Assembly (NCBI RefSeq): GCF_019029495.1
Contig: NZ_JAERQM010000004.1
Location: 1 to 64,000 of the forward strand
Source of the DNA: Falsiroseomonas oleicola
GTDB taxonomy: Bacteria; Pseudomonadota; Alphaproteobacteria; Acetobacterales; Acetobacteraceae
Direction of reading: 5' to 3'
DNA length: 64,000 nt
The position numbers and the translations under genes are program-made. The notes under the pieces were generated by a model. The model was given only the letters and a program-made list of their open reading frames with translations. It did no database searches and had not been told where the DNA came from. Shown one piece after another: positions 1 through 22,724 of this stretch. Each line of letters opens with the position of its first letter. Within the stretch, counting starts at the first letter, position 1.

Positions 1-321
1 CTCTGCGCGCCACGCCGTCATTCTCGCGCGCATCATCCCAGCGGAACCCATGTCGCGCCGAGCCGGCTCGAAGCCACAGCGGCAGCAATGAAGCGCAAGT
101 GGCGAACTTGACGCCCTCGGCGAGCGCCGTGTCGTCGCTATCCTCGACGCTGCCGAGGGTTCGATCCCGGCCTCGGCCAGGCGCTCGGTGTACCGGTTGG
201 ACGCACTGCGTCCCACGCCGAAGGCTCGCCGCCCATTGCGGGCCGTGCTCCCCAGCGCCAGCCGCACCGTCCGCTCCCGAACCTCAGGCAAGTCGTTCGC
301 CGCCGTCGTCTTCGCCGTCAT
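1..321 (-). pseudogene. IS3-family transposase remnant, frameshifted
   Basis: Read leftward from an ATG at 321, the first 60 or so codons give an OrfA-like start (LPEVRERTVRLAL). This is followed at once by ASNRYTERLAEAGIEPS, a stretch typical of the C-terminal catalytic region of IS3 OrfB (usual form: YTERLAEAGIEPSVGSVGDSYDNALAE). Near nt 150 the frame shifts and the same motif continues as SVEDSDDTALAEG in another frame. The middle of the element is therefore deleted and the rest is frameshifted. The piece runs off the left edge of the window. No terminal inverted repeats could be identified. The family call rests on motif recall and no search was run. Confidence 0.7.
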
Positions 322-5792: not shown

Positions 5793-6569
5793 TCATGGCG
5801 CGGCGAGCCGGTTGATGCCGGGCGGCAGGACGGAGGCGAGCAGCGCCCTTGTGTAGTCATGCGCCGGCGCGTGCAGCACCGCTGCCACCGGGCCGCGCTC
5901 CACCACCTCGCCCTGGCGCAGCACCGCGATCTCCTCGCACAGCAGCTGCACCACGGCGAGGTTGTGCGAGATGAACAGGAAGGCGAGTTGGTGGCGTGCG
6001 CGCAGGCGGCGCAGCAGGTCGATGATCTGCGCCTGGACCGAGACATCCAGCGCCGAGGTCGGCTCATCCAGCAGCAGCGCGCGCGGCCCGGGCGCCAGTG
6101 CGCGGGCGATGCAGACGCGCTGCTTCTGGCCGCCCGAGAGTTCATGCGGATAGCGCCACAGGAATTCCGGGCCGAGGCCCACATCGTCCAGCAGCCCATC
6201 GATCCGCGCGCGCAGTTTCGTGCGGCTCAGCCCGCCCTGGATGAGCAGGGGCTCCGCCACCGCGTCATGCACGCTCAGGCGTGGGTTCAGCGCGGAATGC
6301 GGGTTCTGGAACACCACCTGCACGTCGCGGCGCAGGGCGCGCAGCGCGGCGTTGCGGGCGGTGGTGATCTCCGCGCCATCCATCAGCACCTGGCCCGCGG
6401 CCACGTCCTGCAGGCGCAGCAGCACCCGCAGCAGGGTGGACTTGCCGGAGCCGGATTCGCCCACCAGCCCCAGCGCGGCGCCCGGCTGCAGCGCCAGGCT
6501 GGCCTCGCGCACCGCCGCATGGGCGCCGAAGCGCACGGTGACGTCGCGCAGCTCCAGCAGCGGGATCAT
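5793..6569 (-). CDS. Opp/Dpp-type ABC importer ATPase (second ATPase)
   Basis: 258-residue nucleotide-binding subunit of an oligopeptide/dipeptide-type importer, last gene of the hydantoinase operon. Walker A is GLVGESGSGKST near residue 35, the signature is LSGGQKQRVCIARAL near 150, Walker B ALLLDEPTSALD near 170, and the switch histidine lies in FISHNLAVV near 205. It is about 60 residues shorter than a standard OppF because the C-terminal oligopeptide-family extension is missing. Its ATG overlaps the stop of the preceding ATPase gene in ATGA, which implies translational coupling. It acts at the cytoplasmic face as a heterodimer with the 320-residue partner. Confidence 0.93.
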   Translation of the reverse strand: MIPLLELRDVTVRFGAHAAVREASLALQPGAALGLVGESGSGKSTLLRVLLRLQDVAAGQVLMDGAEITTARNAALRALRRDVQVVFQNPHSALNPRLSVHDAVAEPLLIQGGLSRTKLRARIDGLLDDVGLGPEFLWRYPHELSGGQKQRVCIARALAPGPRALLLDEPTSALDVSVQAQIIDLLRRLRARHQLAFLFISHNLAVVQLLCEEIAVLRQGEVVERGPVAAVLHAPAHDYTRALLASVLPPGINRLAAP

Positions 6570-7528
6570 GGTGCCACCGCATGGCAGGCCACCGCATGCG
6601 GCGCGCCGCGCAGCACCGGCTTGGTGGTGCAGCAGATCGGCATGGCCAGCGGGCAGCGCGGGTGATAGCGGCAGCCTTGCGGCGGGTCGCGCAGGTTCGG
6701 GATGCTGCCGGGAATGCCGGAAGGCATGTGGCCCGGCTGCCGCAGATCCGGCATGGCGGCGAGCAGGCCGCGCGTATAGGGGTGCAGCGGCGAGCCGAAC
6801 AGCAGCTCGGCCGGTGCATCCTCCACGATGGTGCCGGCATACATCACCACGATGCGCCGGCAGGCGGCGCCGATCACGCCGAGGTCGTGGCTGATCAGCA
6901 TCAGCGTCAGCCCCAGCCGCGCCACGAGATCCGCGATCAGCGCCAGGATCTGGCGCTGGATGGTGACGTCCAGCGCCGTGGTCGGCTCATCCGCCACCAG
7001 AACGCGCGGATTGCCGGCCAACGCCTCCGCGATCAGCACGCGCTGGCGCATGCCGCCCGACAATTCATGCGGGTAGCGGTCGAGCAGCGCCGCGGCCTCC
7101 GGCAGGCGCACCGCCTCCAGCAGTTCGATGCAGCGGGCGCGGCGCTGGGCTCGGGAGAGCCCTGGCTCATGCGCGCGCAGCACTTCCTGCATCTGCTGCC
7201 CGATGGTGAAGACGGGGTTCAGATAGGTGACGGGGTCCTGGAAGACCATGCCGATGATGCCGCCGCGCAGCCGGCGCAGCGCGCCGCCGCCCATGGCCAG
7301 GATGTCCTCGCCCTCGTAGCGGATGGCGCCGGAGACGACGCGCGCCGGCGGCGAGGGGTTCAGCCGCAGCAGGCTGCGCGCCAGCACGGATTTGCCGCAG
7401 CCGGTCTCACCGACGATGCCGACGGACTCGCCGGCCTCGATGGCGAGGTCGATGCCATCCAGCACATGCACCCGGCCTTCGAAGCCATCGAAGGCCAGCC
7501 GATAATCCTCAATCCGGATCAGACTCAC
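6566..7528 (-). CDS. Opp/Dpp-type ABC importer ATPase (first ATPase)
   Basis: 320 residues starting at a GTG that overlaps the upstream permease stop (GTGA). Walker A GIVGETGCGKSV near residue 40, signature LSGGMRQRVLIAEAL near 160, Walker B VLVADEPTTALD near 180, and switch histidine in LISHDLGVI. The C-terminus keeps the oligopeptide-family tail, including a cysteine-bearing CRYHPRCPLAMPICC stretch, unlike its shorter partner. This is the DppD/OppD position in a standard five-component importer. The chain of 4-nt overlaps through the four following genes argues for a fixed stoichiometric operon. Confidence 0.94.
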   Translation of the reverse strand: MSLIRIEDYRLAFDGFEGRVHVLDGIDLAIEAGESVGIVGETGCGKSVLARSLLRLNPSPPARVVSGAIRYEGEDILAMGGGALRRLRGGIIGMVFQDPVTYLNPVFTIGQQMQEVLRAHEPGLSRAQRRARCIELLEAVRLPEAAALLDRYPHELSGGMRQRVLIAEALAGNPRVLVADEPTTALDVTIQRQILALIADLVARLGLTLMLISHDLGVIGAACRRIVVMYAGTIVEDAPAELLFGSPLHPYTRGLLAAMPDLRQPGHMPSGIPGSIPNLRDPPQGCRYHPRCPLAMPICCTTKPVLRGAPHAVACHAVAP

Positions 7529-8439
7529 CCGCGCGAACTCCGCGGGTCGAGCGTATCGCGCAGCCCGTCGCCGAACAGGTTGAAGCCGAGCACGGTGAGG
7601 AAGATGAACAGGCCCGGAAAGGCGGAATACCACCACCAGTCGGGCATGTAGGTGCGGCCGATGGCGATCATCGCGCCCCATTCCGGCGCCGGCGGCTTGG
7701 CGCCGAGGCCGATGAAGCCGAGCGAGGCCGCGGCCAGGATCGCCATGCCCATGTCCATGCTGGCCTTCACCACCAGCGGGCTGACGCAATTGGGCAGGAT
7801 GTGGCGCCAGAGGATATGCGCATGGGAGGCGCCCATGGTGCGTGCGGCTTCCACATAGGATTCGCTCCGCAAGGTCAGCGCCTTCGCCTCGATCAGCCGG
7901 ACATAGCCGGGCCACCAGACGATGGCGAGCGCCAGCACGCCGTGCAGGATGCCGGGGCCGAGCGCGGCGACGATGGCCAGCGCCAGAACCAATCCCGGCA
8001 CGGCGAGGAACACATCGGTGATCCGCATGATGACGCTGCGGATGCGGCCGCCGAAATAGCCCGCTGCGATGCCGAGCGGCACGCCGACCAGCGCCGCGAT
8101 GCCGGTGATGGTCACGCCGATCCAGAAGCTGGTGCGGGTGCCGATGATGACGCGGGTCAGGATATCGCCGCCCATCTCATCCGTACCGAACCAGTGCGCG
8201 GCGGAAGGCGGTTGCAGGCGATTGGCGAGATCCACCGCGCCGCGCGCATGTTCGGGATAGGGCACGATCCACGGCCCGATCAGCGTCAGCACCAGGAAGG
8301 CCAGCACCAGCAGCAGGCCCAGCATGGCCGAGGGACTGCGCGAAAAGGTCCAGACGAAGAAACGCGCCTGGCGGATGCTGCCCGCATGTTCCATGCCGAA
8401 GCGCGCGAGGCGCGAGGCGGGAAGGCTCGCCTCGCTCAT
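7525..8439 (-). CDS. DppC-type ABC permease
   Basis: 304-residue inner-membrane permease. After a cytoplasmic N-terminus comes a first membrane span (LGLLLVLAFLVLTLIGPWIV, about residues 40-60) and the periplasmic HWFGTDEMGGDILTRVIIG motif typical of DppC/OppC. Further spans follow, with the EAA coupling loop at YVEAARTMGASHAHILWRHI near residue 205. The ATG at 8439 overlaps the stop of the DppB-type gene by 4 nt, which fixes the start. It forms the translocation pore with the DppB-type partner. The substrate is probably a peptide-like or cyclic amide compound given the hydantoinase at the head of the operon; this is inference. Confidence 0.94.
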   Translation of the reverse strand: MSEASLPASRLARFGMEHAGSIRQARFFVWTFSRSPSAMLGLLLVLAFLVLTLIGPWIVPYPEHARGAVDLANRLQPPSAAHWFGTDEMGGDILTRVIIGTRTSFWIGVTITGIAALVGVPLGIAAGYFGGRIRSVIMRITDVFLAVPGLVLALAIVAALGPGILHGVLALAIVWWPGYVRLIEAKALTLRSESYVEAARTMGASHAHILWRHILPNCVSPLVVKASMDMGMAILAAASLGFIGLGAKPPAPEWGAMIAIGRTYMPDWWWYSAFPGLFIFLTVLGFNLFGDGLRDTLDPRSSRG

Positions 8440-9449
8440 GCGCCGCGCGTCCGCGGATCGAGCCAGCCATAGGCGAGGTCGACGAGGAGATTGGCCAGCA
8501 TGAACATCAGCCCGATCACCAGCGTCACCCCCATCACCGGCTTGAAGTCCGCGGCGATGGCCGAATTCACGGCATAGAGGCCGATGCCGGGCCAGTCGAA
8601 GACCGTCTCCACCAGCACCGTGCCGCCAAGCATCCAGCCGAAGCGCAGCCCGATCATCGCCAGCGTCGGCAGCATCGCATTCTTCAGCGCCAGCAGCCCG
8701 ATCACGCGCGATGGCATCACGCCGTGCGCGCGGGCGGCGGTGACATGGTCCGAGCCCAGCACCTCGATCATCTCCGCGCGGTTTACCCGCAGCACGGAGG
8801 CGAGGCAGGGCAGGGACAGCACGAAGGCCGGCAGCACCGCATGCGCGGCGGCATCGCGCAGGCTGTCCCATTGCCCGGCCAGCAGGGAATCGAACAGCAC
8901 CATGCCGGTGATGGAGGGCGGCGGATCGGCGGCGATGGACATCAGCCCGCCGGTCGGCAGCAGACCCCACCAGACGCCCACCACCATCTGCAGCAGCAGC
9001 GCGATCCAGAAGGCCGGCAGCGCGATGCCGGAAACCGCCAGCACCCGGATGCCATGGTCGAGCCAGGAACCGCGCCAGACGGCGGCGAGGATGCCGAGCG
9101 GAATCCCCACCGCACAGGCAAACGCCATGGCCAGGATCACCAGCTGGAAGGTCGCCGGCACATACCGCAGAAGATCCTCGCCCACCGTATTGCCGCTGGT
9201 CAGCGATCGGCCGAAGCGGCCCTGGGCGAGGTCCGTGACATAGCGCCAGAACTGTTCCGGCAGCGGCCGGTCCAGCCCATATTCGGCGCGGATCGTCGCC
9301 ACCATGTCCGGCGTCGCATCCGGCCCGGCGGCCAGCGCGGCGGGGTCCGCGGGCGTGACATTGGCGATCACGAAGGTGATCACCACCAGCCCGAGCAGCA
9401 TCAGCGCGACATGCACCAGCCGCCCGGCCAGGTAGCGCGCCATGCTCAT
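8436..9449 (-). CDS. DppB-type ABC permease
   Basis: 337 residues with the DppB/OppB layout. A first span lies at RLVHVALMLLGLVVITFVIA, the periplasmic region carries YGLDRPLPEQFWRYV and GRFGRSL, and an EAA loop (VTAARAHGVMPSRVIGLLALKN) sits near residue 230. The ATG at 9449 overlaps the binding-protein stop (ATGA). An in-frame ATG at 9443 is possible and changes two residues. It pairs with the DppC-type permease directly downstream. Confidence 0.94.
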   Translation of the reverse strand: MSMARYLAGRLVHVALMLLGLVVITFVIANVTPADPAALAAGPDATPDMVATIRAEYGLDRPLPEQFWRYVTDLAQGRFGRSLTSGNTVGEDLLRYVPATFQLVILAMAFACAVGIPLGILAAVWRGSWLDHGIRVLAVSGIALPAFWIALLLQMVVGVWWGLLPTGGLMSIAADPPPSITGMVLFDSLLAGQWDSLRDAAAHAVLPAFVLSLPCLASVLRVNRAEMIEVLGSDHVTAARAHGVMPSRVIGLLALKNAMLPTLAMIGLRFGWMLGGTVLVETVFDWPGIGLYAVNSAIAADFKPVMGVTLVIGLMFMLANLLVDLAYGWLDPRTRGA

Positions 9450-11029
9450 CCGCGCGCGGCGAACAGAGGGAAAAGGTCCACCTCGCCGGTCAGGTTCAGC
9501 GCCTGGTGCTGGAAGCCGCGCACATAGCTGCGCATGGCCCATTGCTGGTTGGCGGTCATGCAGAACACCACCGGCTGCAATTCCAGCACGCGGCGCTGGA
9601 TGCGGGCGTAGAGCGCCATGCGCTTCGCCGCATCCAGCTCCACCGCCCCCTCCGCCACCATGCGGTCGATCTCCGCATCGCGCAGATGGTGGATGCCCCA
9701 GAACTGCCCGGCGGCGGAGGATGCATATTGCGAGGCGACGGTATCCGGCGAGGTGGTGACGGGTGTGACATAGACCGCCGTCATCGCCGCCGCCGTCTCC
9801 GGGTTCGCGCCGCGGCCGATCAGCGTGGGCCAAGGCTGGCCCACGATGTTCACGCGGATGCCGAGGGGTTGCAGCGCATTCAGCAGCACCAGGCCGATCT
9901 GCCGCTGCACCTCATGTCCCGCCACCTGCAGGTATTCCAGCTCGATCCCGCCATTCGGCGTGGCGGTGCGCGCCATGTACTGCTTCGCGCGATCGAGGTC
10001 GCGGCGCGGCATGTCGAGCGTGATGCGGCCCTCGGTGACGAAGGGGAAGGGCCCGTCCATCAGCTTGGCGTCGCCCTTGTGGATGGCGATCAGCGCGTCG
10101 TAGTCGAAGGCATAGGCGATCGCCTTGCGCAGGTTGATGTCGGCGGTCGGGCCCTTCTGCGTGTTCATCATGATCGCGAAGGGCGCGGCGCCCGTGTCGT
10201 TCGTCACCACCATGTTCGGCATGCGCGCGAGTTGTTCCAGGTCGTCCGGCGTCAGCCCGGCGGCGATATCCACCTCGCCGCGTTGCAGGGCCGCCTTGCG
10301 GGGCGCGGATTCACGCATGACGCGGTAGATGACGCCGGCGGGGCGGTCGGCATCCGACATCGGCCAGCCCTTCCAGTACTCCGGCACCGCCGCCAGCGCC
10401 ATCACGGTCTGGCCATCCCAGCGGCGGATGGTGAAGGGGCCGGAGCCGGCGGCGTTGGTGGTCAGCCACTTCTGGCCGTCATCATCGTCCTCGACATTCG
10501 CCATCACCTGCTTCGGGTTCACCACGAACCACAGCGGCAGGAAGGAAATGAAGTCCGGATAGGCGCGTTCCAGGGTGAAGCGCACGGTGCGCGCATCCAC
10601 CGCCGCGATATTCTCCGGCTTCAGGTGGCGCGACAGCATCCAGGAGATGCCCTTGTTCAGCCGCAGCCCGCGCTGGAAGGAAAAGCGCACGGCTTCCGCA
10701 TCCAGCGCATCGCCATTGTTGAACTTGGCGTTGCCGACCAGGCGGAAGGTCCAGGTCAGGCCATCCGCGCTGGTCTCCCAACTCTCGGCCAGCCAGGGGA
10801 TGACGCGCGCGGGCGTGCCTTCGTAGCGCACCAGCGGGTCGTACAGGCAGCGCTGCATCATGCGCGTGGACCAGTCGTAGCGCTGGTGCGGGTCCAGGAT
10901 CGGCACCGGCTGATTGCCGGAGAAGACCAGGATGCGGCGATTGCCCTCCCGCTCGAACCCGTAGGCCGGGCTGAGCGAGGAGGCGGCGACCAGGCCACCC
11001 GCACCGAGGAGGAGTTCGCGGCGATTCAT
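9446..11029 (-). CDS. SBP_bac_5 periplasmic binding protein of the hydantoinase importer
   Basis: 527-residue extracellular solute-binding protein, family 5 (oligopeptide/dipeptide/nickel type). The N-terminus MNRRELLLGAGGLVAASSLS resembles a twin-arginine or Sec export signal. Typical family blocks are DPHQRYDWSTRMMQRCLYDPLVRYEG, WETSADGLTWTFRL, and RKAIAYAFDYDALI near residue 310. It begins 11 nt after the fused hydantoinase ends and is coupled by a 4-nt overlap to the first permease. It likely selects the substrate that the hydantoinase opens in the cytoplasm. Confidence 0.93.
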   Translation of the reverse strand: MNRRELLLGAGGLVAASSLSPAYGFEREGNRRILVFSGNQPVPILDPHQRYDWSTRMMQRCLYDPLVRYEGTPARVIPWLAESWETSADGLTWTFRLVGNAKFNNGDALDAEAVRFSFQRGLRLNKGISWMLSRHLKPENIAAVDARTVRFTLERAYPDFISFLPLWFVVNPKQVMANVEDDDDGQKWLTTNAAGSGPFTIRRWDGQTVMALAAVPEYWKGWPMSDADRPAGVIYRVMRESAPRKAALQRGEVDIAAGLTPDDLEQLARMPNMVVTNDTGAAPFAIMMNTQKGPTADINLRKAIAYAFDYDALIAIHKGDAKLMDGPFPFVTEGRITLDMPRRDLDRAKQYMARTATPNGGIELEYLQVAGHEVQRQIGLVLLNALQPLGIRVNIVGQPWPTLIGRGANPETAAAMTAVYVTPVTTSPDTVASQYASSAAGQFWGIHHLRDAEIDRMVAEGAVELDAAKRMALYARIQRRVLELQPVVFCMTANQQWAMRSYVRGFQHQALNLTGEVDLFPLFAARG

Positions 11030-11039
11030 GCGTCGTCTC

Positions 11040-14000
11040 CTATTCCGCAGCCTGGGCGGCGGCTTGTGCCGTCGCCGTGCTGACGTAGCCTTCAAGCAAA
11101 TCCCGTTCCACCAATGCGGCGCTGCGCGAAGCGGGGTCGCCGAAGCCGGACCCGCCACACAGGCGCACCTCGATCATCCGGCTGGTATCAGTCAGCGTCA
11201 CCAACTCGCCGGTGCCGCAGTCGCGGATGAGGTTGCCGTCGCGGTCCAGCACCGCGCCGCGCGCCGCACCGCCCTGCAACCCGCCGAACAGGCCGGGCGA
11301 GTCCACGCCCACGCCTTCCGCCGCGACCGAGGCCTGGGTCGGCAGCCCGTCATCATGCAGCTTGCGCATCCGCGTCCGCGTGCCGAGGCCGCCGCGATGC
11401 TGGCCGGCGCCGCCGGAATCCGCCACCAGCGACTTCTCCACCACCAGGACCGGCGACCGCGTCTCGAACAATTCGATCGAGGTATTGGCGGCCGAGGTCG
11501 GCCAGAGCAGCGCGGATTTTCCGTCCTGCGCCGCGCTCGCGCCCTGGCCGCCGCCCATGAAGAAGTGGTCGGCATAGAGCCGCCCCTTCGCATCCAGCCC
11601 ATGCACTTTTACGGAGACCGGCAGCCCGGTATGCGCCTGCACTCGGTCCGGCGCCGCATCCGACAGCGCGCGGAAAATGTTGGGCGCCAGGTACCAGCCG
11701 GTGCGGGTGCGCAGCGCCACAGCGGCGGGGCGCGTGCAGTTCAGCACCGAACCCTCCGGCGCCTTCACCGTGATGGGCCGGTAGCAGCCGGCATTGCCGC
11801 GCACCTGCGGGCTGAGCATGCATTTCAGCGGGTAGGACCCATGCGCGATGGTGTAGCTGAAGGTGCAGTTCAGCCCGCCCAGCGGCAGCTGGTCCGGCAC
11901 GCCCTCGAAATCCAGCTCGATCTCGTCGCCCGCCACCGTCAGCTTCAGCGGATAATGCAGCGTGCGGCCCAGCGCGGCATTGCTGACGGTGGAGTGGTAG
12001 ACGCCATCCGGCAGCGCGCGGATCGCATCCCGCATGGCGCGCTCCGCACGGCCCTGCACCACGGCAGCGAGCGCGCGCAGGTCCTGCATGCCATAGTCGC
12101 GCATGAAGCCGAGCAGCCGCTCGCCGCCCTGCGCATTGGCCGCGATGAAGGAATGCAGGTCGCCCAGCACCTCCTCCGACTTGCGGACATTCTCGCCGAT
12201 CATGTCGAACAGCGTGTCGTTGGGCTCGCCGGCGCGATACAGCTTGGCGGGCGGAATCTGCAGGCCCTCGTCGAAGATCTCGGTGGCCTTCAGCCCGTCC
12301 TTGATGCCGCCGATATCGCCGACATGGCCGACCGTGCCCATCAGCGCCACCAGCCGCCCGTCGAGGAACACCGGCGTGACGATGGCGATGTCATACAGGT
12401 GCCCGGCGCAGAGCCAGGGATCGTTGGTGATCAGCACATCGCCCTGCCGCAGCGTCTCCGCCGGGTATTTCTGCAGCATCGCCTTCACGGCGCGCGGCAG
12501 GGTCAGGTTGAACACCGGCATGGCGCGCGGCGAATGGGCGAGGGATTCGCCATCGGCATCCAGGATGTCGCAGGCGAAATCCTGCGCCTCGGAGACGATC
12601 AGGCTGAAGGCGGTGCGGCAGATGGCCTGCCACATCTCCTCCACGATGGTCACCAGCCGGCTCCACATGATCTCGAGCGAGACGGGGTCCGCCTCGATCA
12701 GTGCGCAGGCCTCGGCCATCGGCGTGGCGGGGGTGATGCGCGCGGCGATCGGTGCGGCGACGCCGACGCGGATGCGCAGCGTGCCGGCGGCGCCGACCGT
12801 AACGCTGTCCTGCGGCCCGAGGATGGTCGTGGCCTCGCGCTCCTCGATGATGGCGGGGCCGTGGATCGTGCCTTCGGAGGCGAGCGCGTAGCGGTCATAG
12901 ACCGGCGTGTCGTGGAAGCGGTCGCCGAACCAGGCCATGCGGCGGCCCTTCAACGCCACGCCCCCCGCCGGCGCATCCGCCTGCGCCACGGTCAGCGCCG
13001 GGGCGGGGCCCGCGGCACGCACGCGGAAGGAGACGATCTCGGCGGCGACACCCTTGTAAACCGAGGTGAAGCGCGCGGAGTAGACGCGCCGGAACGCCTC
13101 CATCACCGCGGGCAGGTTTTGGGCCGTGATCGCGCCATCCGGCAGCGGCACGTTGATCTCATGGATCTGGCCGGCGAGGCGCATGTCGGCGCTGCGCTCG
13201 ATGGTGAGCTCGGCCTGGTCCATGCCCGACGAAGTCAGCATCGCTGCCGTCTCCGCCGCGAGTTCCGACAGCACCTGCTGCATCACCGCCGGGGCCGCCG
13301 GATCGTCCAGCGCCACGGGCAGCGACCGCACGCTCTCGAAGGCCAGCGGCGCGGCGAGGAAGCCGAGCGCGGAGGCAGCGCCGGAGGCGGGCGGGATCAG
13401 CACCTCCTCCACGCCCAGGATGCGCGCCACCTCCACCGCATGGGCGGGGCCGGCGCCGCCGAAGCCGACCATGGCGTAGCGACGCGGGTCCTTGCCCTTC
13501 TCCACGATATGGATGCGCGCGGCGGCGGCCATGCTTTCCGTCACCGTGCGATGGATGCCCCAGGCCGTCTGCACCGCCGAAAGGCCGAGCTGCGCGCCGA
13601 CCGCCGCCAGCGCGGCCTCCGCCGCCGGCTTGTCCAGCGCCATGCGGCCGCCGAGGAAGAAGCCCGGGTCGTAATAGCCGAGCATCAGGTTCGCATCGGT
13701 CACCGTCGCCTGCGTGCCGCCGCGGCCGTAGCAGGCCGGGCCCGGATCGGCGCCCGCGGAATGCGGCCCGACCTTCAGCAGACCCACCTCGTCGATGCTG
13801 GCGATGGAGCCGCCGCCGGCGCCGATCTCGATCATGTCGATGACGGGCGCCTTGATCGGCAGGCCGGAGCCCTTCTTGAAGCGGTGCAGCCGCGCCACTT
13901 CCATCATCGGCGCGACCTCGCAGGCGCCATCCGCGATCATGCAGGCCTTGGCGGTGGTGCCGCCCATGTCGAAGGAGATCACGTCCTTCTTGCCGACCAA

Positions 14001-14843
14001 CCCGCCGAAGAAGGCGGTGGCGAGGCCGCCGCCCGCGGGGCCGCTCTCCAGCAGGCGGATCGGGAAAGTGCGCGCCGCCTCCGGCCCGACCAGGCCGCCC
14101 GCTGATTGCATCAGCCGCAGTGCGCCGCGGAAGCCGCGGCCCCACAACTCGCGTTCCAGCCGCGCCAGGTAGCGGTCCATCAGCGGCTGCACATAGGCAT
14201 TGGCGCAGGTGGTGACGAAGCGCTGGTACTCCCACAGCTCGGCCACGACCTCCGACGACAGCGACAGGGCGAGGTCCGGGAATTCCGCCCGGATCGCGGC
14301 GGCGGCCGCCTTCTCATGCATCGGGTTGCGATAGGCGTGCAGGAAGCAGATGGCGATCGCCTCCGCGCCCGCGGCCACCAACTGACGCGCCGCCTGCGTC
14401 ACCGCGGCGAGGTCCAGCGGCGTCACCACCTGGCCGTCGCGATCCAGCCGCTCCGGCACTTCCAGGCGGTTGCGGCGCGGCACCAGCGGGTCCGGGTATT
14501 GCAGGAACAGGTCGTAGATGTCGTAGCGCTGCTCCGTGCCCATCTCGATCACGTCGCGGAAGCCGGCGGTGGTGATCATGCCGAGCGAGGCGCCCTTGCG
14601 CTCGATCAGCGCATTGGTGATCAGCGTGGTGCCGTGCACGATCTCCGAGATGTCGGACAGCGCCAGCCCGGCCTCGGCGACCAGCGCCGCCAGGCCCGCG
14701 AGCGCGCCCTCCGAGGGGTCCTGCGGCGTGGTCAGGCATTTGTGCAGGCGGATGGTGGCGGTGGCGCGGTCGAGCAGGATGAAGTCGGTGAAGGTGCCGC
14801 CGATGTCGAATCCGATCCGGTAGCGGGTCGCCGCGTCTGCCAT
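11040..14843 (-). CDS. Fused HyuA-HyuB hydantoinase / 5-oxoprolinase-type enzyme
   Basis: A single 1267-residue polypeptide. Residues about 1-690 are a HyuA (hydantoinase A/oxoprolinase) unit with the ATPase-fold motif GFDIGGTFTDF near residue 12, SFDMGGTTAKACMI near 285 and GAGGGSIAS near 345. From about residue 725 to the end it is HyuB (LEIMWSRLVTIVEEMW, SEAQDFACDILD, VLITNDPWLCAGHLYD). Bacterial versions are usually two genes; the fusion resembles the ATP-dependent 5-oxoprolinase layout. The family opens cyclic imides or lactams using ATP. The start ATG at 14843 precedes ADAATRYRIGFDIGG. The importer genes follow immediately, so the operon couples uptake with ring opening. The exact ring substrate is unknown. 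A second, broken HyuA fragment lies at about 48008-48190. Confidence 0.93.
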   Translation of the reverse strand: MADAATRYRIGFDIGGTFTDFILLDRATATIRLHKCLTTPQDPSEGALAGLAALVAEAGLALSDISEIVHGTTLITNALIERKGASLGMITTAGFRDVIEMGTEQRYDIYDLFLQYPDPLVPRRNRLEVPERLDRDGQVVTPLDLAAVTQAARQLVAAGAEAIAICFLHAYRNPMHEKAAAAAIRAEFPDLALSLSSEVVAELWEYQRFVTTCANAYVQPLMDRYLARLERELWGRGFRGALRLMQSAGGLVGPEAARTFPIRLLESGPAGGGLATAFFGGLVGKKDVISFDMGGTTAKACMIADGACEVAPMMEVARLHRFKKGSGLPIKAPVIDMIEIGAGGGSIASIDEVGLLKVGPHSAGADPGPACYGRGGTQATVTDANLMLGYYDPGFFLGGRMALDKPAAEAALAAVGAQLGLSAVQTAWGIHRTVTESMAAAARIHIVEKGKDPRRYAMVGFGGAGPAHAVEVARILGVEEVLIPPASGAASALGFLAAPLAFESVRSLPVALDDPAAPAVMQQVLSELAAETAAMLTSSGMDQAELTIERSADMRLAGQIHEINVPLPDGAITAQNLPAVMEAFRRVYSARFTSVYKGVAAEIVSFRVRAAGPAPALTVAQADAPAGGVALKGRRMAWFGDRFHDTPVYDRYALASEGTIHGPAIIEEREATTILGPQDSVTVGAAGTLRIRVGVAAPIAARITPATPMAEACALIEADPVSLEIMWSRLVTIVEEMWQAICRTAFSLIVSEAQDFACDILDADGESLAHSPRAMPVFNLTLPRAVKAMLQKYPAETLRQGDVLITNDPWLCAGHLYDIAIVTPVFLDGRLVALMGTVGHVGDIGGIKDGLKATEIFDEGLQIPPAKLYRAGEPNDTLFDMIGENVRKSEEVLGDLHSFIAANAQGGERLLGFMRDYGMQDLRALAAVVQGRAERAMRDAIRALPDGVYHSTVSNAALGRTLHYPLKLTVAGDEIELDFEGVPDQLPLGGLNCTFSYTIAHGSYPLKCMLSPQVRGNAGCYRPITVKAPEGSVLNCTRPAAVALRTRTGWYLAPNIFRALSDAAPDRVQAHTGLPVSVKVHGLDAKGRLYADHFFMGGGQGASAAQDGKSALLWPTSAANTSIELFETRSPVLVVEKSLVADSGGAGQHRGGLGTRTRMRKLHDDGLPTQASVAAEGVGVDSPGLFGGLQGGAARGAVLDRDGNLIRDCGTGELVTLTDTSRMIEVRLCGGSGFGDPASRSAALVERDLLEGYVSTATAQAAAQAAE

Positions 14844-14930
14844 CTGGCCAGCACCTGTCCGTGGGGCGGCACGCGGAGCGCGCCGACATTGTCTCCCCCG
14901 CAGCTTTGCAGATCGCCCCGCCTGAGCTGA

Positions 14931-14948
14931 ATAAGGGCGGCTCCTTAT
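14931..14948. promoter_or_regulatory. Inverted repeat ATAAGG-N6-CCTTAT upstream of the hydantoinase operon
   Basis: A perfect 6+6 bp dyad with a 6-base spacer, 88 bases upstream of the hydantoinase ATG, in the 159-base space that follows the AroM-LuxR gene. LuxR-type DNA-binding domains commonly recognise dyads of about 18-20 bp, so this is the obvious candidate operator for that regulator. It is one copy only and could also act as a weak hairpin. Confidence 0.45.
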
Positions 14949-15002
14949 CCGCGCTGCCGCCACTGCCGCGAAAGCGGGCAATCGCTGCGGAATTCAGGCA
15001 GG

Positions 15003-15962
15003 CTACTGGTCGCGCACAAGCATCAGCCGCCGGAACAGCTCGATGGCGGAGCCGGCATTCAGCTTGGCCATGACCCGGGCGCGATGGATTTCCACGGTGC
15101 GGTGGCTGATGCCGAGGCGGCGGCCGATCTCCTTGTTGCCCTCGCCCTGCAGCAGCGCCTTCAGCACGTCGCGCTCCCGCGGCGTCAGGGTTTCGGTCTG
15201 GCCCGGCAGGCGGTCCATCAGCGCCTGCAGGGGCTCTGTCTCGTGGCCCGATCCCGGCTCCGCCGGATGCCCGGGCGGCGGCCGCGCGGCCAGCGCCACC
15301 AGGTGCAGCCGGATCGCACCGGCCAGGATGCGCCGCGCGGTGACCACCGGCTTGCCGGTGCGGGCGGCGAGTTGTTCGGCCATCGCCTCCGTATAGCCGA
15401 CGGAGTGCATGAGGATGAGGTTGGCCGCCTCCAGCCGGTGCGCCGCCTCGTTGAAATCGGCGATGTCATCCTCCCGCGCCACGGCGCGGGCGCTCTGGAT
15501 CAGGGCGCCATGGGCGGAGCCGCGATGCTGTTCCTCCAGCGAATGCATCACGCCGATCCGCGCCTCCCCCATCACCAGCGCGCCGATCCAGGCATCCACC
15601 ACCTGCTGGGCATGCACGAAGGGCGTGCGCAGGCGATACGGCTGGAACAGGCTCGTGCTGGCCAGCACGATCAGGTCGTGGCCCGCACCGTCCAGCCGGT
15701 GCAGCAGCGGCGCCAGGCGGCGGGCCAGGAAGCCGGCGCCGAGCCGCACGCGCTGGCCCCCGCCCAGCCGGGTGAACAGCACCGGCTCCCGCTCCCGCGG
15801 TGCGCCGGCGGCGATGCCGGCCGCGTCCAGCCCGTCCAGTGCGCCGAATTCCTGCAGCTCCACCTCGCCTGGCGCCGCGCCGGCCAAAGCAAGCACCTCC
15901 GGCACCATGTCCTCGCGCGGGGAGTGGCCGATGCTGACGAAGGCGAGGCGTGGACGGGCCAT
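15003..15962 (-). CDS. AroM-domain / LuxR-HTH fusion regulator
   Basis: 319 residues in two parts. Residues 1 to about 225 look like an AroM-family domain: FVSIGHSPREDMVPEVL, ELQEFGALDGLDAAGI, VLFTRLGGGQRVRLG, and MHSVGYTEAMAEQLAARTGKPVV where AroM proteins have a DCIGYTEEM-like block. Residues 259-319 are a clear LuxR/GerE helix-turn-helix (LTPRERDVLKALLQGEGNKEIGRRLG, then ISHRTVEIHRARVMAKL). AroM is related in fold to Asp/Glu/hydantoin racemases. This protein contains no cysteine anywhere, and the positions where racemase-like relatives carry Cys are Ser or His here, which suggests ligand sensing rather than catalysis. It sits directly upstream of the hydantoinase operon on the same strand and is its likely regulator. 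Confidence 0.8.
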   Translation of the reverse strand: MARPRLAFVSIGHSPREDMVPEVLALAGAAPGEVELQEFGALDGLDAAGIAAGAPREREPVLFTRLGGGQRVRLGAGFLARRLAPLLHRLDGAGHDLIVLASTSLFQPYRLRTPFVHAQQVVDAWIGALVMGEARIGVMHSLEEQHRGSAHGALIQSARAVAREDDIADFNEAAHRLEAANLILMHSVGYTEAMAEQLAARTGKPVVTARRILAGAIRLHLVALAARPPPGHPAEPGSGHETEPLQALMDRLPGQTETLTPRERDVLKALLQGEGNKEIGRRLGISHRTVEIHRARVMAKLNAGSAIELFRRLMLVRDQ

Positions 15963-15996
15963 GGAGCGTTCCGGGCGGCGGGGCCCAAGCGTATTT

Positions 15997-16028
15997 CAGT
16001 GGCCAGGGGTCCTGTCCACTGGCCAGTG
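15997..16028. promoter_or_regulatory. Paired TGGCCA-type palindromes before the AroM-LuxR gene
   Basis: CAGTGGCCAG (15997-16006) and the perfect 12-bp palindrome CACTGGCCAGTG (16017-16028) sit 35-66 bases upstream of the regulator's ATG. Together they can also form a stem (AGTGG.CAGG / CCTG.CCACT). This may be an autoregulatory site or leader hairpin; function not shown. Confidence 0.35.
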
Positions 16029-16254
16029 CCAAGGCGTGGCCTGCCCGATGCTGTCACAGGCCACGGCGGGCACCCGGCCGCTCAGACTATCCAGACCCAG
16101 GCCGGCGCACCGGCGCCAGGCGCGTCAGGGTGGATCAGGAGAGCGCGCACGGCCTGTCCGGCGCGCCGCGGCATCATGGCGGCAGCGCGGGGAGGACCTG
16201 CCATCACAGCGCGCTGGGCACGATGCGCGGGCGAAGCCGACGGCCTTGTCGGCC
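16029..16254. other. Intergenic space with no gene seen
   Basis: About 225 bases between the ABC ATPase stop and the palindromes upstream of the AroM-LuxR gene. No credible coding sequence was recognised. It presumably holds the promoter of the regulator. Confidence 0.4.
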
Positions 16255-17328
16255 CTAGGGCCGCACCACCACCACGCCCTCCTCATCCAGCAGCAGCCGG
16301 ACCTTCTCCCCCGGCTGGCGCCGGCGCAGGCGGTCGGCGCCCTGGGCGAACAGCTCGCCCACGGCGGTGCTGAAGTAATACTCGGTGTGGGAGCCCATAT
16401 AGGTGGCGCGGGCGACCGTCGCCTCCAGCCCGTTTGGTGCATCGGGGGCGGCGATGCGGATTGCCTCCGGCCGGATCACCGCATCCACCGGCCCGGGCGG
16501 CAGGCCACGACCCGGCAGGGTCAGCCGGGCCCCGTCCAGCGCCAGCACGCAATGCTCGCCCGAAACGCTCTCGATGACGCCGCGCACATGGTTCGCCTCG
16601 CCCATGAAGGTGGCGACGAAGACGGAATCCGGGCTGGCATAGAGCACCTCCGGCGCGCCGGCCTGGGCGATGCCGGCATTGCGCATCACCACGATCTTGT
16701 CGGAGACGGCCAGCGCCTCCGCCTGGTCATGCGTGACATAGACCACGGTCAGGCCGAGGCGCTGCTGCAGCGCGCGGATCTCCTCCCGCATGGTGCGGCG
16801 CAGGCGGGTGTCGAGATTGGACAGCGGCTCGTCGAACAGCAGCACATCGGGCTCCAGCACCAAAGCGCGGGCGACCGCCACGCGCTGCTGCTGGCCGCCG
16901 GACATCTCGGAGGGTAGCCGCCCGCCAAAGCCTTTCAGCCCCACGGTCTCCAGCACCGCCTCCGCCTTGGCATGCGCATCGCGCTTCTTCTCGCCGGAGG
17001 AGATCAGGCCATAGGCGACGTTCTCCAGCACCGACATATGCGGGAAGAGCGCATAGGACTGGAAGACCATGGAGACGTTGCGCTCACCGGCGGACAGCAG
17101 GGTGACGTCGCGGCCGCCGATGAAGATGCGGCCCTCCGTCGCCTGTTCCAGTCCGGCGATCATGCGCAACAGCGTGGTCTTGCCGCAGCCGGAGGGGCCG
17201 AGAAGCGTCACCAGCGTGCCGCCCTCGATCACCAGGTCGAGCGGCTTCACCGCCTGCACCTGGCCGTATCGCTTGCCGAGACCGGTGAGGCGGACTTCCG
17301 CGCCGGTCGTCTTGATGGGGATGCTCAC
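16255..17328 (-). CDS. Fbp/Afu/Pot-type ABC importer ATPase
   Basis: 357 residues from a GTG overlapping the permease stop (GTGA). Walker A LLGPSGCGKTTLLRM near residue 43, signature MSGGQQQRVAVARAL near 145, Walker B VLLFDEPLSNLD near 165, and switch histidine in VYVTHDQAEAL. The C-terminal TOBE-like region (residues about 245-357) is regulatory. It energises the 737-residue double permease. The family includes ferric iron, phosphonate and polyamine importers, and sequence alone does not separate these. Confidence 0.93.
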   Translation of the reverse strand: MSIPIKTTGAEVRLTGLGKRYGQVQAVKPLDLVIEGGTLVTLLGPSGCGKTTLLRMIAGLEQATEGRIFIGGRDVTLLSAGERNVSMVFQSYALFPHMSVLENVAYGLISSGEKKRDAHAKAEAVLETVGLKGFGGRLPSEMSGGQQQRVAVARALVLEPDVLLFDEPLSNLDTRLRRTMREEIRALQQRLGLTVVYVTHDQAEALAVSDKIVVMRNAGIAQAGAPEVLYASPDSVFVATFMGEANHVRGVIESVSGEHCVLALDGARLTLPGRGLPPGPVDAVIRPEAIRIAAPDAPNGLEATVARATYMGSHTEYYFSTAVGELFAQGADRLRRRQPGEKVRLLLDEEGVVVVRP

Positions 17329-19548: not shown

Positions 19549-20571
19549 TCAGCGCGGCAGTGCGCCGACCTCCCTGTCCCAGCGCGCCAGCAGGCGGCGG
19601 CGCTCGGCGCTCGCGCCGAAGCGGGCATTGTCGTAGTCGATGATCCGCGCGGTCGCCATGTTGGGCGCGCCATCGGTCAGCGGCACGCCGCGATTGGCCA
19701 TGGTTTGCAGCTTCTTCGCTTCCTGGCTGGCGATGATCTGCGCGGGGGCGGAGAGCGCCCAATGGTAGAATTGCTGCGCCGCCGGCAGGTTGCGCGCGCC
19801 GCGGATGATCGACATGGAGCCGATCTCATAGCCCGTGCCCTCGCAGGGCACGGCATGGCCGACGGGGAAACCAGCCGCGGCCTCCTCCGCCGCATTGTGC
19901 ACGAAGGACAGCGACAGCGCCGTCTCGCCGCGCGCCACCGCCGTGATCGGCGCGGTGCCGGAGCGCGGATAGGCGTTGATGCTGCCGTGCAGGCGCTTCA
20001 GGTAGTCGAAGGCCGGCTCCTCCCCCATCATCTGCACCAGGGTGGCGATGATGATATAGGCGGTGCCGGAGCTGTTCGGATTGGCCATCTGGATCTCGCC
20101 GCGATAGGCGGGATTCAGCAGATCCGCCCAGCAGCGCGGCGCCGGCAGGTTGCGGCGCGCGATGAGTTCCGTGTTGAAGCCGAAGCCGAGCACGCTGGCA
20201 TAGACGCCCACCGTGCGGCCCTGGGTCTGGCGCCACTGCGCCTGCGCCCAGTCATGCAGCTCCGCGATGCGCGGGCTTTCATGCAGTTGGGTCAGATTCT
20301 CCTCGCCGGCTGCCACATGCGGGTCGCCGGTGCCGCCCCACCAGACATCGCCGCGCGGGTTGCGCGCCTCACTGCGGATCTGCGCCAGCATCTCGCCTGT
20401 GGACTTCTGGGTCAGGTTCACGCGGATGCCGGTCTCGCGCTCGAAACCGCGCGCGATCGGCTGGCACCACTCCAGCGTGGCAGAGCAGTACAGGTTGAGC
20501 TGGCCCTGCGCAGCGGCGGGCAGCGCCGGCAGGAGGAAGGCCGCGGCGAGCGCGAGGTGACGGTGGTTCAT
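19549..20571 (-). CDS. Periplasmic binding protein 1 of the tandem triplet (SBP_bac_6 type)
   Basis: 340 residues with a Sec signal (LALAAAFLLPALPAAAQG). The mature protein starts QLNLYCSATLEWCQPIA, with two cysteines conserved at matching positions in the other two copies. Other shared blocks are GDVWWGGTGDPHVAAGEENL, MANPNSSGTAYIIIATLVQ and GSMSIIRGARNL. The ATG at 20571 has an AGAGAG ribosome site; an in-frame ATG at 20589 lacks one. This family binds ferric iron, aminoethylphosphonate or similar anions. It is the copy nearest the permease and is closer to copy 3 than to copy 2. Confidence 0.92.
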   Translation of the reverse strand: MNHRHLALAAAFLLPALPAAAQGQLNLYCSATLEWCQPIARGFERETGIRVNLTQKSTGEMLAQIRSEARNPRGDVWWGGTGDPHVAAGEENLTQLHESPRIAELHDWAQAQWRQTQGRTVGVYASVLGFGFNTELIARRNLPAPRCWADLLNPAYRGEIQMANPNSSGTAYIIIATLVQMMGEEPAFDYLKRLHGSINAYPRSGTAPITAVARGETALSLSFVHNAAEEAAAGFPVGHAVPCEGTGYEIGSMSIIRGARNLPAAQQFYHWALSAPAQIIASQEAKKLQTMANRGVPLTDGAPNMATARIIDYDNARFGASAERRRLLARWDREVGALPR

Positions 20572-20608
20572 GCTGTTCTCTCTGTTCATTCAGCGCGCCG
20601 GGCGGGGC

Positions 20609-21634
20609 TCAGCGGGGCAGGGCGCCGATCTCACGGTCCCAGCGCTGCAGGATGCGCCGGCGGGTTTCGGCCTGGCCGAATGCGGCGAAATCGTAGTCCA
20701 CCAGCCGGATGGCGGAGATGTCGGGGATGCGCGCATCGGGCGTCGCGCCACGATGCGCCGGGGCGTGGAACTGGTTGACCTTCGGGCCGATATCCATCGC
20801 CGCCGGCGTCAGGTACCAGTCGTAGAAGCGCCGCGCCTGCGCCAGGTTGCGGGCGCCGCGGATGATCGACATGCAGGCCACCTCATAGCTGGTGCCCTCG
20901 CTGGGATAGGCGATCTCAATCGGGAAGCCGGCCTGCTGCATGGAGATCACCTCCATGTTGAAGGCGGCCGCCAGCGCCGTCTCGCCCCGCGATACCGCCT
21001 GCATCGGCGCGGCGCCGGAACGGGTATAGGCGTTCACATTGGCATGCAGCCGCGCCAGATAGGCGAAGGCGCGATCCTCGTCCCATAGCTGCACCAGTCC
21101 GGCGATGATGGTGTAGGCGGTGCCGGAGGAATTCGGATTCGGCAGCTGGATCTCGTTGCGATAGGCCGGGTTCAGCATATCGGCCCAGCTGGTCGGCAGC
21201 GGCAGGTTCTTGCGCGCCATCAACTCCCGGTTCCAGGCCAGGCCGATGGCGCCGGAGGAGACGCCGACGCAACGCTCGCCGGACATGGCATGCACGCGCT
21301 GCGCCCAGGGATGCAGGTTGGCCATGTTGGGCGAGGTATAGGGCTGCAGCAGATTCGCCTCGGCGGCCGAGATATGCGTCTCGGAGGAAGCGCCGAACCA
21401 GATGTCGGTGCGCGGGTTCTGCGCCTCCGCCCGGATCTGGGCGAGGATCTCGCCGGCCGATTTGCGCGCCATGGCGACGCGCACGCCGGTGTCGCGCTGG
21501 AAGGCGGCGGCGATCGCCTCGCACCAATCGGCGGCCGGCGCGCAGAGCATGTTGAGGCTGCCCTGCGCCGCGGCCGGAAGCGGCAGGGCGGTACAGGCGA
21601 CGACCGCGGTGGCGGCGATCAGGCGGAGGGACAT
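20609..21634 (-). CDS. Periplasmic binding protein 2 of the tandem triplet (diverged copy)
   Basis: 341 residues, signal MSLRLIAATAVVACTALPLP, mature start SLNMLCAPAADWCEAIA. It keeps the two N-terminal cysteines, the LPNPNSSGTAYTIIAGLVQ block and the terminal RILQRWDREIGALPR. It differs from copies 1 and 3 at likely ligand-contact regions: IWFGASSETHISAAEANLL replaces the GGTGDPH segment, and FNMEVISMQQAGFP replaces SFVHNA or SFVHDA. That pattern suggests a different ligand preference while docking to the same permease. Spacing to copy 1 is 37 nt. Confidence 0.92.
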   Translation of the reverse strand: MSLRLIAATAVVACTALPLPAAAQGSLNMLCAPAADWCEAIAAAFQRDTGVRVAMARKSAGEILAQIRAEAQNPRTDIWFGASSETHISAAEANLLQPYTSPNMANLHPWAQRVHAMSGERCVGVSSGAIGLAWNRELMARKNLPLPTSWADMLNPAYRNEIQLPNPNSSGTAYTIIAGLVQLWDEDRAFAYLARLHANVNAYTRSGAAPMQAVSRGETALAAAFNMEVISMQQAGFPIEIAYPSEGTSYEVACMSIIRGARNLAQARRFYDWYLTPAAMDIGPKVNQFHAPAHRGATPDARIPDISAIRLVDYDFAAFGQAETRRRILQRWDREIGALPR

Positions 21635-21695
21635 GGCGGATATCCTGGAGCGAGGCAGCAGCCGGCGCGGGGCTCCGCGCCGGCAGGGTTCGGCA

Positions 21696-22724
21696 TCAGC
21701 GCGGCGCGGAGCCGACCTCCCGGTCCCAGCGCTGGATCAGCCGGCGGCGTTCCGCCGCCCGGCCGTACTTGGCGAAATCATATTCGATGAGGCGGATGCG
21801 CGAGAGGTCAGGCGCATTCGGCGGCAGCGGCGCGGCGGTGTTGGAGGGCTGCTGCAACTGGCCACCGGCCTCGAAGCCCAGCCGTTGGGCGGGCTCGGTC
21901 AGCGCCCAGTCGTAGAAGCGCCGCGCCTGGGTCAGGTTGCGCGCGCCGCGGATGATCGACATGGAGCCGATCTCATAGCCGGTGCCCTCGCAGGGCGTGG
22001 CGTAGGTCACGGGGAAGCCGGCATTGGCCTCCGTCACCGCATCATGCACGAAGCTGATCGAGACACCCGTCTCGCCGCGCGCCACCGCCTTGATCGGCGC
22101 GGTGCCGGAGCGGGTGTAGGAATTCACGTTGGGATGCAGCCCGCGCAGATAGGTGAAGGCGGGTTCTTCCCCCATCAGCTGCACCAGCGTCGCGATGACC
22201 ACATAGGCAGTGCCGGAGGAATTCGGATTGGCGATCTGGATCTCGCCGCGGAAGCGCGCATCCAGCAGGTCGGCCCAGCAGGCGGGGGGCGCGATGTTCT
22301 TGCGGGCGAGCAGTTCCGTGTTGATGCCGAAGCCGACCGCGCCGGCATAGACGCCGATGGCGCGCCGTTCGGATTGCCGCCACTGGGTCAGCGCCCAGGG
22401 ATGCAGCCCGCCATTGTTGGCGCTCTCATAGGCCTGGGTCAGGTTCTCCTCGCCGGCGGCCAGATGCGGGTCGCCGGTGCCGCCGAACCAGACGTCGCCG
22501 CGCGGATTCTGGCTTTCGGCGCGGATCGCGGCGAGCGTCTCGCCGCTGCCGCGCTGCGTCATGCTCACGCGGATGCCAGTGTCGCGCTGGAAGTTTGTAG
22601 CTACCGCCTGGCACCACTCATTCTGCACCGAGCAGTAGAGGTTGAGGCTGCCCTGCGCCGCGGCCGGCGCGGTGAATCCAGCTGGGCCGATCAGCAGGAT
22701 CGGGAGCAGAAGGCGGCGTTGCAT
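21696..22724 (-). CDS. Periplasmic binding protein 3 of the tandem triplet
   Basis: 342 residues from the ATG at 22724 (MQRRLLLPILLIGPAGFTAP signal). The mature start SLNLYCSVQNEWCQAVA matches copies 1 and 2. Shared blocks include GDVWFGGTGDPHLAAGEENL, IANPNSSGTAYVVIATLVQ and GSMSIIRGARNLTQARRFYDW. It is the first gene of the five-gene leftward operon and faces the HpsN-like gene across a 335-base divergent region. The open frame continues upstream of 22724, but no signal peptide or convincing ribosome site supports a longer start. Confidence 0.92.
   Translation of the reverse strand: MQRRLLLPILLIGPAGFTAPAAAQGSLNLYCSVQNEWCQAVATNFQRDTGIRVSMTQRGSGETLAAIRAESQNPRGDVWFGGTGDPHLAAGEENLTQAYESANNGGLHPWALTQWRQSERRAIGVYAGAVGFGINTELLARKNIAPPACWADLLDARFRGEIQIANPNSSGTAYVVIATLVQLMGEEPAFTYLRGLHPNVNSYTRSGTAPIKAVARGETGVSISFVHDAVTEANAGFPVTYATPCEGTGYEIGSMSIIRGARNLTQARRFYDWALTEPAQRLGFEAGGQLQQPSNTAAPLPPNAPDLSRIRLIEYDFAKYGRAAERRRLIQRWDREVGSAPR

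Follow-up and report, generated by a model that had tools for sequence, protein, structure and literature searches.

The window analysed here, 64,000 nucleotides of Falsiroseomonas oleicola DNA (contig NZ_JAERQM010000004.1, positions 1–64,000), contains a gene whose product joins an AroM domain to a LuxR-type helix-turn-helix (HTH) (Table 1). Pfam assigned residues 6–215 to AroM (PF07302; E 3.2e-37, 128.6 bits against a curated cut-off of 23.8) and residues 258–311 to the GerE/LuxR HTH (PF00196; E 1.9e-19, 69.5 bits against 23.5). Both domains had been proposed in a first-pass annotation made from the sequence alone, which had also remarked on a total absence of cysteine; the 319-aa translation indeed contains none, and the gene, for which no strand had been given, lies on the minus strand. 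The N-terminus is occupied by AroM: no receiver domain, as found in FixJ/NarL response regulators, was among the eight Pfam matches at E 0.01, and no Pfam match to the autoinducer-binding domain of quorum-sensing LuxR proteins was obtained. In an AlphaFold model of the fusion (three-row alignment, pLDDT 73.1, pTM 0.67), the best Foldseek match of the AroM part was hydantoin racemase 2eq5 (E 6.7e-7). VIA-align likewise placed 2eq5 best (Z 15.2, rmsd 3.3, 192 aligned), with allantoin racemase 5lfd at Z 12.9. The N-terminal part thus aligns with AroM at the sequence level and with hydantoin racemase at the fold level, as anticipated, and not better with a known LuxR sensor family. The closest PDB sequence to the HTH was FixJ (E 1.9e-20), and none of the 53 matched PDB sequences covered the AroM part.

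Table 1. Genes and features at the AroM-LuxR locus (window positions; residues for the protein layout).
Feature	Position	Strand	Remarks
Second Dpp-type ATPase	5793..6569	minus	
Dpp-type ATPase with oligo_HPY	6566..7530	minus	start approximate
DppC-like permease	7525..8440	minus	start approximate
DppB-like permease	8436..9446	minus	
SBP5 solute-binding protein (SBP_bac_5)	9446..11026	minus	
Fused HyuA-HyuB (HyuAB; hydantoinase/oxoprolinase A+B)	11040..14849	minus	1269 aa; start assigned by homology
Candidate operator, 16-bp dyad TAAGG-GCGGCT-CCTTA	14932..14947	.	centre ~90 bp before HyuAB start codon
AroM-LuxR fusion gene	15003..15962	minus	319 aa; ORF list and Pfam
Fusion protein layout	AroM 6-215; linker ~216-257; LuxR HTH 258-311		Pfam

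The position directly before a hydantoinase operon, also part of the earlier reading, holds: the assigned HyuAB start lies 153 bp past the fusion stop. Next in line come SBP5 and the Dpp-type genes, first the two permeases and then the two ATPases. The best NCBIfam matches of HyuAB were the caprolactamase alpha and beta subunits (522.5 and 210.6 bits, both below the curated cut-off of 1000). SBP5 beside HyuAB is also conserved in three further fusion loci (L016, L018, L024). A search of 14800–16300, including the gap between dyad and HyuAB, revealed no sigma-70-like promoter or terminator.

To find relatives, we searched with the window protein or with a ten-row alignment of fusions. Within the window's family, four genomes out of 200 (its own, G072, G006 and G155) carried a full-length fusion, and one more (G319) was found among 299 genomes of the order; at the level of the class, 9 of 385 genomes carried one, the window's own included. 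Six of 72,556 plasmid records, from Shinella, Neorhizobium and four Ketogulonicigenium vulgare, also encode fusions, as do Mesorhizobium xinjiangense and Martelella alba. Three of these named carriers are Alphaproteobacteria by their records, and we take the remaining two to be so as well. Twelve further fusion genomes all belong to one genus. A phylum-wide scan of 398 genomes returned only the window's own full-length fusion; as the best five candidates per genome were scored, fusions may have been missed there. Three further scans (23, 17 and 15 genomes) yielded no new fusion. Within the genus of the window, none of six additional genomes searched gave a match at the thresholds used, so that the gene is patchy. 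The working set comprised 31 fusions: long context was available for 19 of them, at 18 loci, and 1.5-kb flanks for the later 12. From it we dropped L028 and other K. vulgare strains, which are near-copies of L026, and left a broken copy (L019) out of all counts and the tree. In this remnant (G003:C52, 9924–10394), the N-terminal half of an AroM resembling those of the fusions (56% identity to residues 4–131, no cysteine at the first catalytic position) continues directly into a fragment of an ABC transporter. The fusions have been overlooked because public annotation shows only 'AroM family protein' or a hypothetical protein, with the HTH unnamed, as for L025, L026, L027 and L028.

A hydantoinase or DUF917/S-Me-THD gene lay on the same fetched stretch as 30 of the 31 fusions, and all 19 long-context fusions had a hydantoinase-family gene. 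Six loci (the window, L012, L016, L017, L018 and L024) are of the HyuAB type; the remaining long-context loci carry DUF917/S-Me-THD together with a short hydantoinase A. DUF917 is ~2 kb from the fusion in L056 and ~7.5 kb from one of the two fusions in L054. Among the later 12 fusions, DUF917 was within the flank in 11, and the stretch of the twelfth is cut by the contig end. A free-standing AroM gene accompanies the fusion in 11 of the 18 long-context loci (L012, L017, L018, L027, L051–L056 and L070) and is absent from the stretch in the window, L016, L024, L025, L026, L057 and L058; the Shinella locus has an Asp/Glu racemase gene in its place. The window's own genome contains no second AroM above the Pfam cut-off, so the enzyme whose substrate the fusion would sense is absent there. 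L054 (G709:C4) encodes two different AroM-LuxR fusions. One diverges from free AroM-SBP5-Dpp genes, the other from DUF917-hydantoinase genes, and each has a separate dyad; these are perhaps two sensors for one pathway.

We aligned 19 fusions with 20 intact free AroMs to compare the catalytic cysteines of the racemase fold. Both cysteines are present in 19 of the 20 free AroMs; the exception, Escherichia coli AroM, has the second one only. None of the 31 fusions (0/19 aligned and 0/12 later) has a cysteine at either position. The window protein carries S102 and S187 there, and across the fusions S, A, T or M occupies the first position and S or A the second. The first-pass annotation had argued from the total absence of cysteine that the fold has become a ligand sensor. 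The direction of this argument was right, its measure was not: the two positions count, not the whole protein, and complete absence, tried as the key shared trait, is true of only 2 of the 19 aligned fusions (the window protein and L016), the common trait being loss of the two catalytic cysteines. The loss is also selective. Conservation in no fewer than 10 of the 11 nearest free AroMs defines 48 positions. The two cysteines are the only ones of these that no fusion retains; at 34 of the 48, the residue is unchanged in 10 or more of the 19 fusions. E117, P164 and Y165 of the free AroMs are each retained in 1 of 19 fusions, so the pocket is altered beyond the cysteines and the ligand may differ from the substrate of the enzyme.

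Loss of both catalytic cysteines implies that the N-terminal domain should bind a ligand without turnover. Alternatively, the AroM domain might still be catalytic by a serine-based or one-base mechanism, the protein being enzyme and regulator at once. Eight conserved positions (G12, P15, R16, G40, L42, D43, G137 and V206) do persist in all 19 fusions, and E. coli AroM, without the first cysteine, shows that one-cysteine members exist. We nonetheless consider such a trigger enzyme very unlikely, as no fusion has either cysteine, the replacing residue varies, unlike a conserved new catalytic residue, and a separate AroM with cysteines at both positions is available in the 11 loci with a free-standing copy. 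The same contrast in cysteines between fusions and free AroMs, together with the free AroM at these loci, strongly supports the earlier proposal that a racemase-like fold has turned into a sensor.

Maximum-likelihood analysis of the AroM domain (39 rows, midpoint-rooted for drawing) split the 19 fusions from the free AroMs on one branch (support 99/95) and grouped them with 11 operon-type free AroMs (99/97), apart from the E. coli-like ones. As the root is taken to lie outside the fusions, we read the fusions as derived from free AroMs. The simplest history would then be a single duplication, with the two cysteines lost and an HTH acquired.

The dyad singled out in the first-pass annotation is present before HyuAB and has the conserved form TAnGn-N6-nCnTA; in outline, a TA...TA inverted repeat of 16 bp corresponds to NarL-type sites. 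We drew this pattern from the gaps beside five fusions (the window, L016, L024, L017 and L018), all of which carry it (5/5), and ran it on the other 14 as a held-out test. With flank widths fixed after the first such run, 13 of the 14 held-out fusions had a match. Dinucleotide shuffling (500 runs) gave 0.62 on average and never more than 4, and other spacers from 0 to 15 reached at most 4 of 14. The one clear miss was L056, with no dyad in the flanks of its fusion. Of the later 12 fusions, which are from one genus and not independent, with differing dyad spacers, 11 had the dyad, and the twelfth is without its upstream DNA. Overall, the dyad was found near 29 of 31 fusions, compared with a match within 3 kb in one of eight free-AroM loci without a fusion (three of these with DUF917).

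After one match that lies behind the regulator (L054:14971) was dropped, 21 dyads were compared. All lie 62–188 bp before a gene start, with starts estimated by homology, and in 20 of 21 the gene that follows is HyuAB, DUF917, a free AroM or an OPT transporter; in L012 it is the fusion, then HyuAB. Several features outside the pattern definition recur: position 5 of the half-site is G or T in 40 of 42 and position 6 is G or A in 40 of 42, and 29 of the 42 half-sites are flanked by an A on the outside. At position 5, 15 of the 21 dyads have matching halves, a level that 17 of 2000 shuffles reached; agreement at the other variable positions was not significant in these 21. In the 5.6 Mb of the window's own genome, the strict form TAMGK-N6-MCKTA has a single match, at the dyad before HyuAB. 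We rejected this single match as proof by itself, since the looser form TAVGK-N6-MCBTA has six matches in the same genome and 1–13 in the ten searched genomes where full-length fusions are lacking, and so shows no genome-wide specificity; it is place, not rarity, that carries the dyad argument. Reversing the pattern as a control gave 93 matches, but the reversed pattern differs in base composition and is no fair estimate of chance. A separate palindrome, TAGGGGTTAAACCCTA, lies at G000:C25:124908-124923, with near copies in G095 and G195 of the same genus, and resembles the site of another system.

Two other readings of the dyad have to be weighed. The site might belong to a different regulator, such as a MurR/RpiR, LysR or LacI protein, that merely co-occurs with the fusion. 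Regulators of this kind do lie near L025, L026 and L027. Across the 17 dyad-listed loci, however, no regulator other than the fusion is shared, a point that follows from how they were chosen (by construction); given the contrast between loci with and without a fusion, we regard this as exceedingly improbable. Alternatively, the HTH might regulate only its own gene or other targets, with the AroM domain serving as a dimerisation scaffold instead of a ligand sensor. We judge this improbable: the dyad follows the regulator and precedes a catabolic gene in the five discovery loci, in each of L027, L051 and L054 two operons have dyads of their own, and selective loss of two cysteines while 34 of the 48 conserved positions persist is more in keeping with a preserved binding site than with a scaffold, even though in six divergent loci (L025, L026, L052, L053, L057 and L058) the dyad is also 14–92 bp from the regulator's own start.

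Overall, these data suggest a model where the fusion is a one-component regulator that uses a catalytically dead racemase as its sensor and couples ligand, via the dyad, to expression of HyuAB, SBP5 and the Dpp genes; we put its probability at about 0.82. The fused architecture, the family-wide cysteine loss, the hydantoinase neighbourhood, the conserved dyad and the single tree branch, all read from sequence, are what it builds on. Points that speak against it are the promoter search between dyad and HyuAB, which gave no sigma-70-like element, the missing dyad of L056, the matches of the looser pattern elsewhere, the altered pocket and, in the window's genome, the lack of a free AroM above the Pfam cut-off. 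In this model, the racemase-like AroM enzyme of the operon itself would have been copied, and the copy joined to a FixJ/NarL-type LuxR HTH with loss of both catalytic cysteines. The AroM domain would bind, without turnover, a cyclic amide or related amino-acid derivative, probably a hydantoin, a lactam or a cyclic dipeptide-like compound. A dimer would sit on the 16-bp dyad through its HTH, and the ligand would alter the DNA-bound state of this dimer and thereby expression of the uptake and ring-opening genes, presumably by activation rather than repression. Most likely, then, the fusion controls genes for uptake and breakdown of small ring-shaped amides.

The fusion shares its AroM domain and racemase fold with the AroM family (E. 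coli AroM) but has an added LuxR HTH and, in the window protein, serine at both cysteine positions. It likewise shares its fold with Asp/Glu/hydantoin racemases (2eq5, glutamate and allantoin racemases), but is without their catalytic cysteine pair and has a DNA-binding tail. HTH and 16-bp inverted-repeat site resemble those of FixJ/NarL-type LuxR regulators, whereas the receiver domain of these is replaced, by Pfam, with a racemase-like domain. One-component regulators with a sensor derived from a metabolic enzyme are a known kind: MocR/GabR, ROK (NagC) and SorC/DeoR-type proteins use the folds of an aminotransferase, a sugar kinase and a sugar isomerase, with HTH types that differ from that of the fusion. 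To our knowledge, no enzyme-derived sensor of racemase fold is known among such regulators. In the open-licence PMC literature we found no description of an AroM-LuxR family, or of a LuxR HTH that combines a sensor of racemase fold with such an operator, and this combination with a dyad is apparently undescribed there. We lean towards a family that was born once, when an operon AroM was duplicated, lost both cysteines and captured a FixJ-like HTH, and that would recognise the compound, or a single enantiomer of the compound, on which the partner AroM and hydantoinase act.

One study describes AroM as experimentally uncharacterised and reports both AroM and DUF917 as uncharacterised but linked to hydantoin (PMC11055893). 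This link is compatible with a cyclic-amide ligand, without being proof of it. If the model holds, a racemase fold would have been recruited as a one-component sensor, and the identity of the inducer would assign a substrate to an uncharacterised enzyme family. As a dead-enzyme sensor stands beside the live enzyme and a defined candidate operator, the AroM substrate would become a simple reporter question, and the fusions might provide ready-made biosensors for hydantoin-like compounds.

We also considered the ABC transporter upstream of the fusion gene as a part of the system and rejected it, as it is not adjacent to the fusion in L016 and L024. It is encoded on the minus strand at 19549–22724, where three tandem, similar solute-binding proteins are followed by a permease and an ATPase, an arrangement of one transporter with three receptors.
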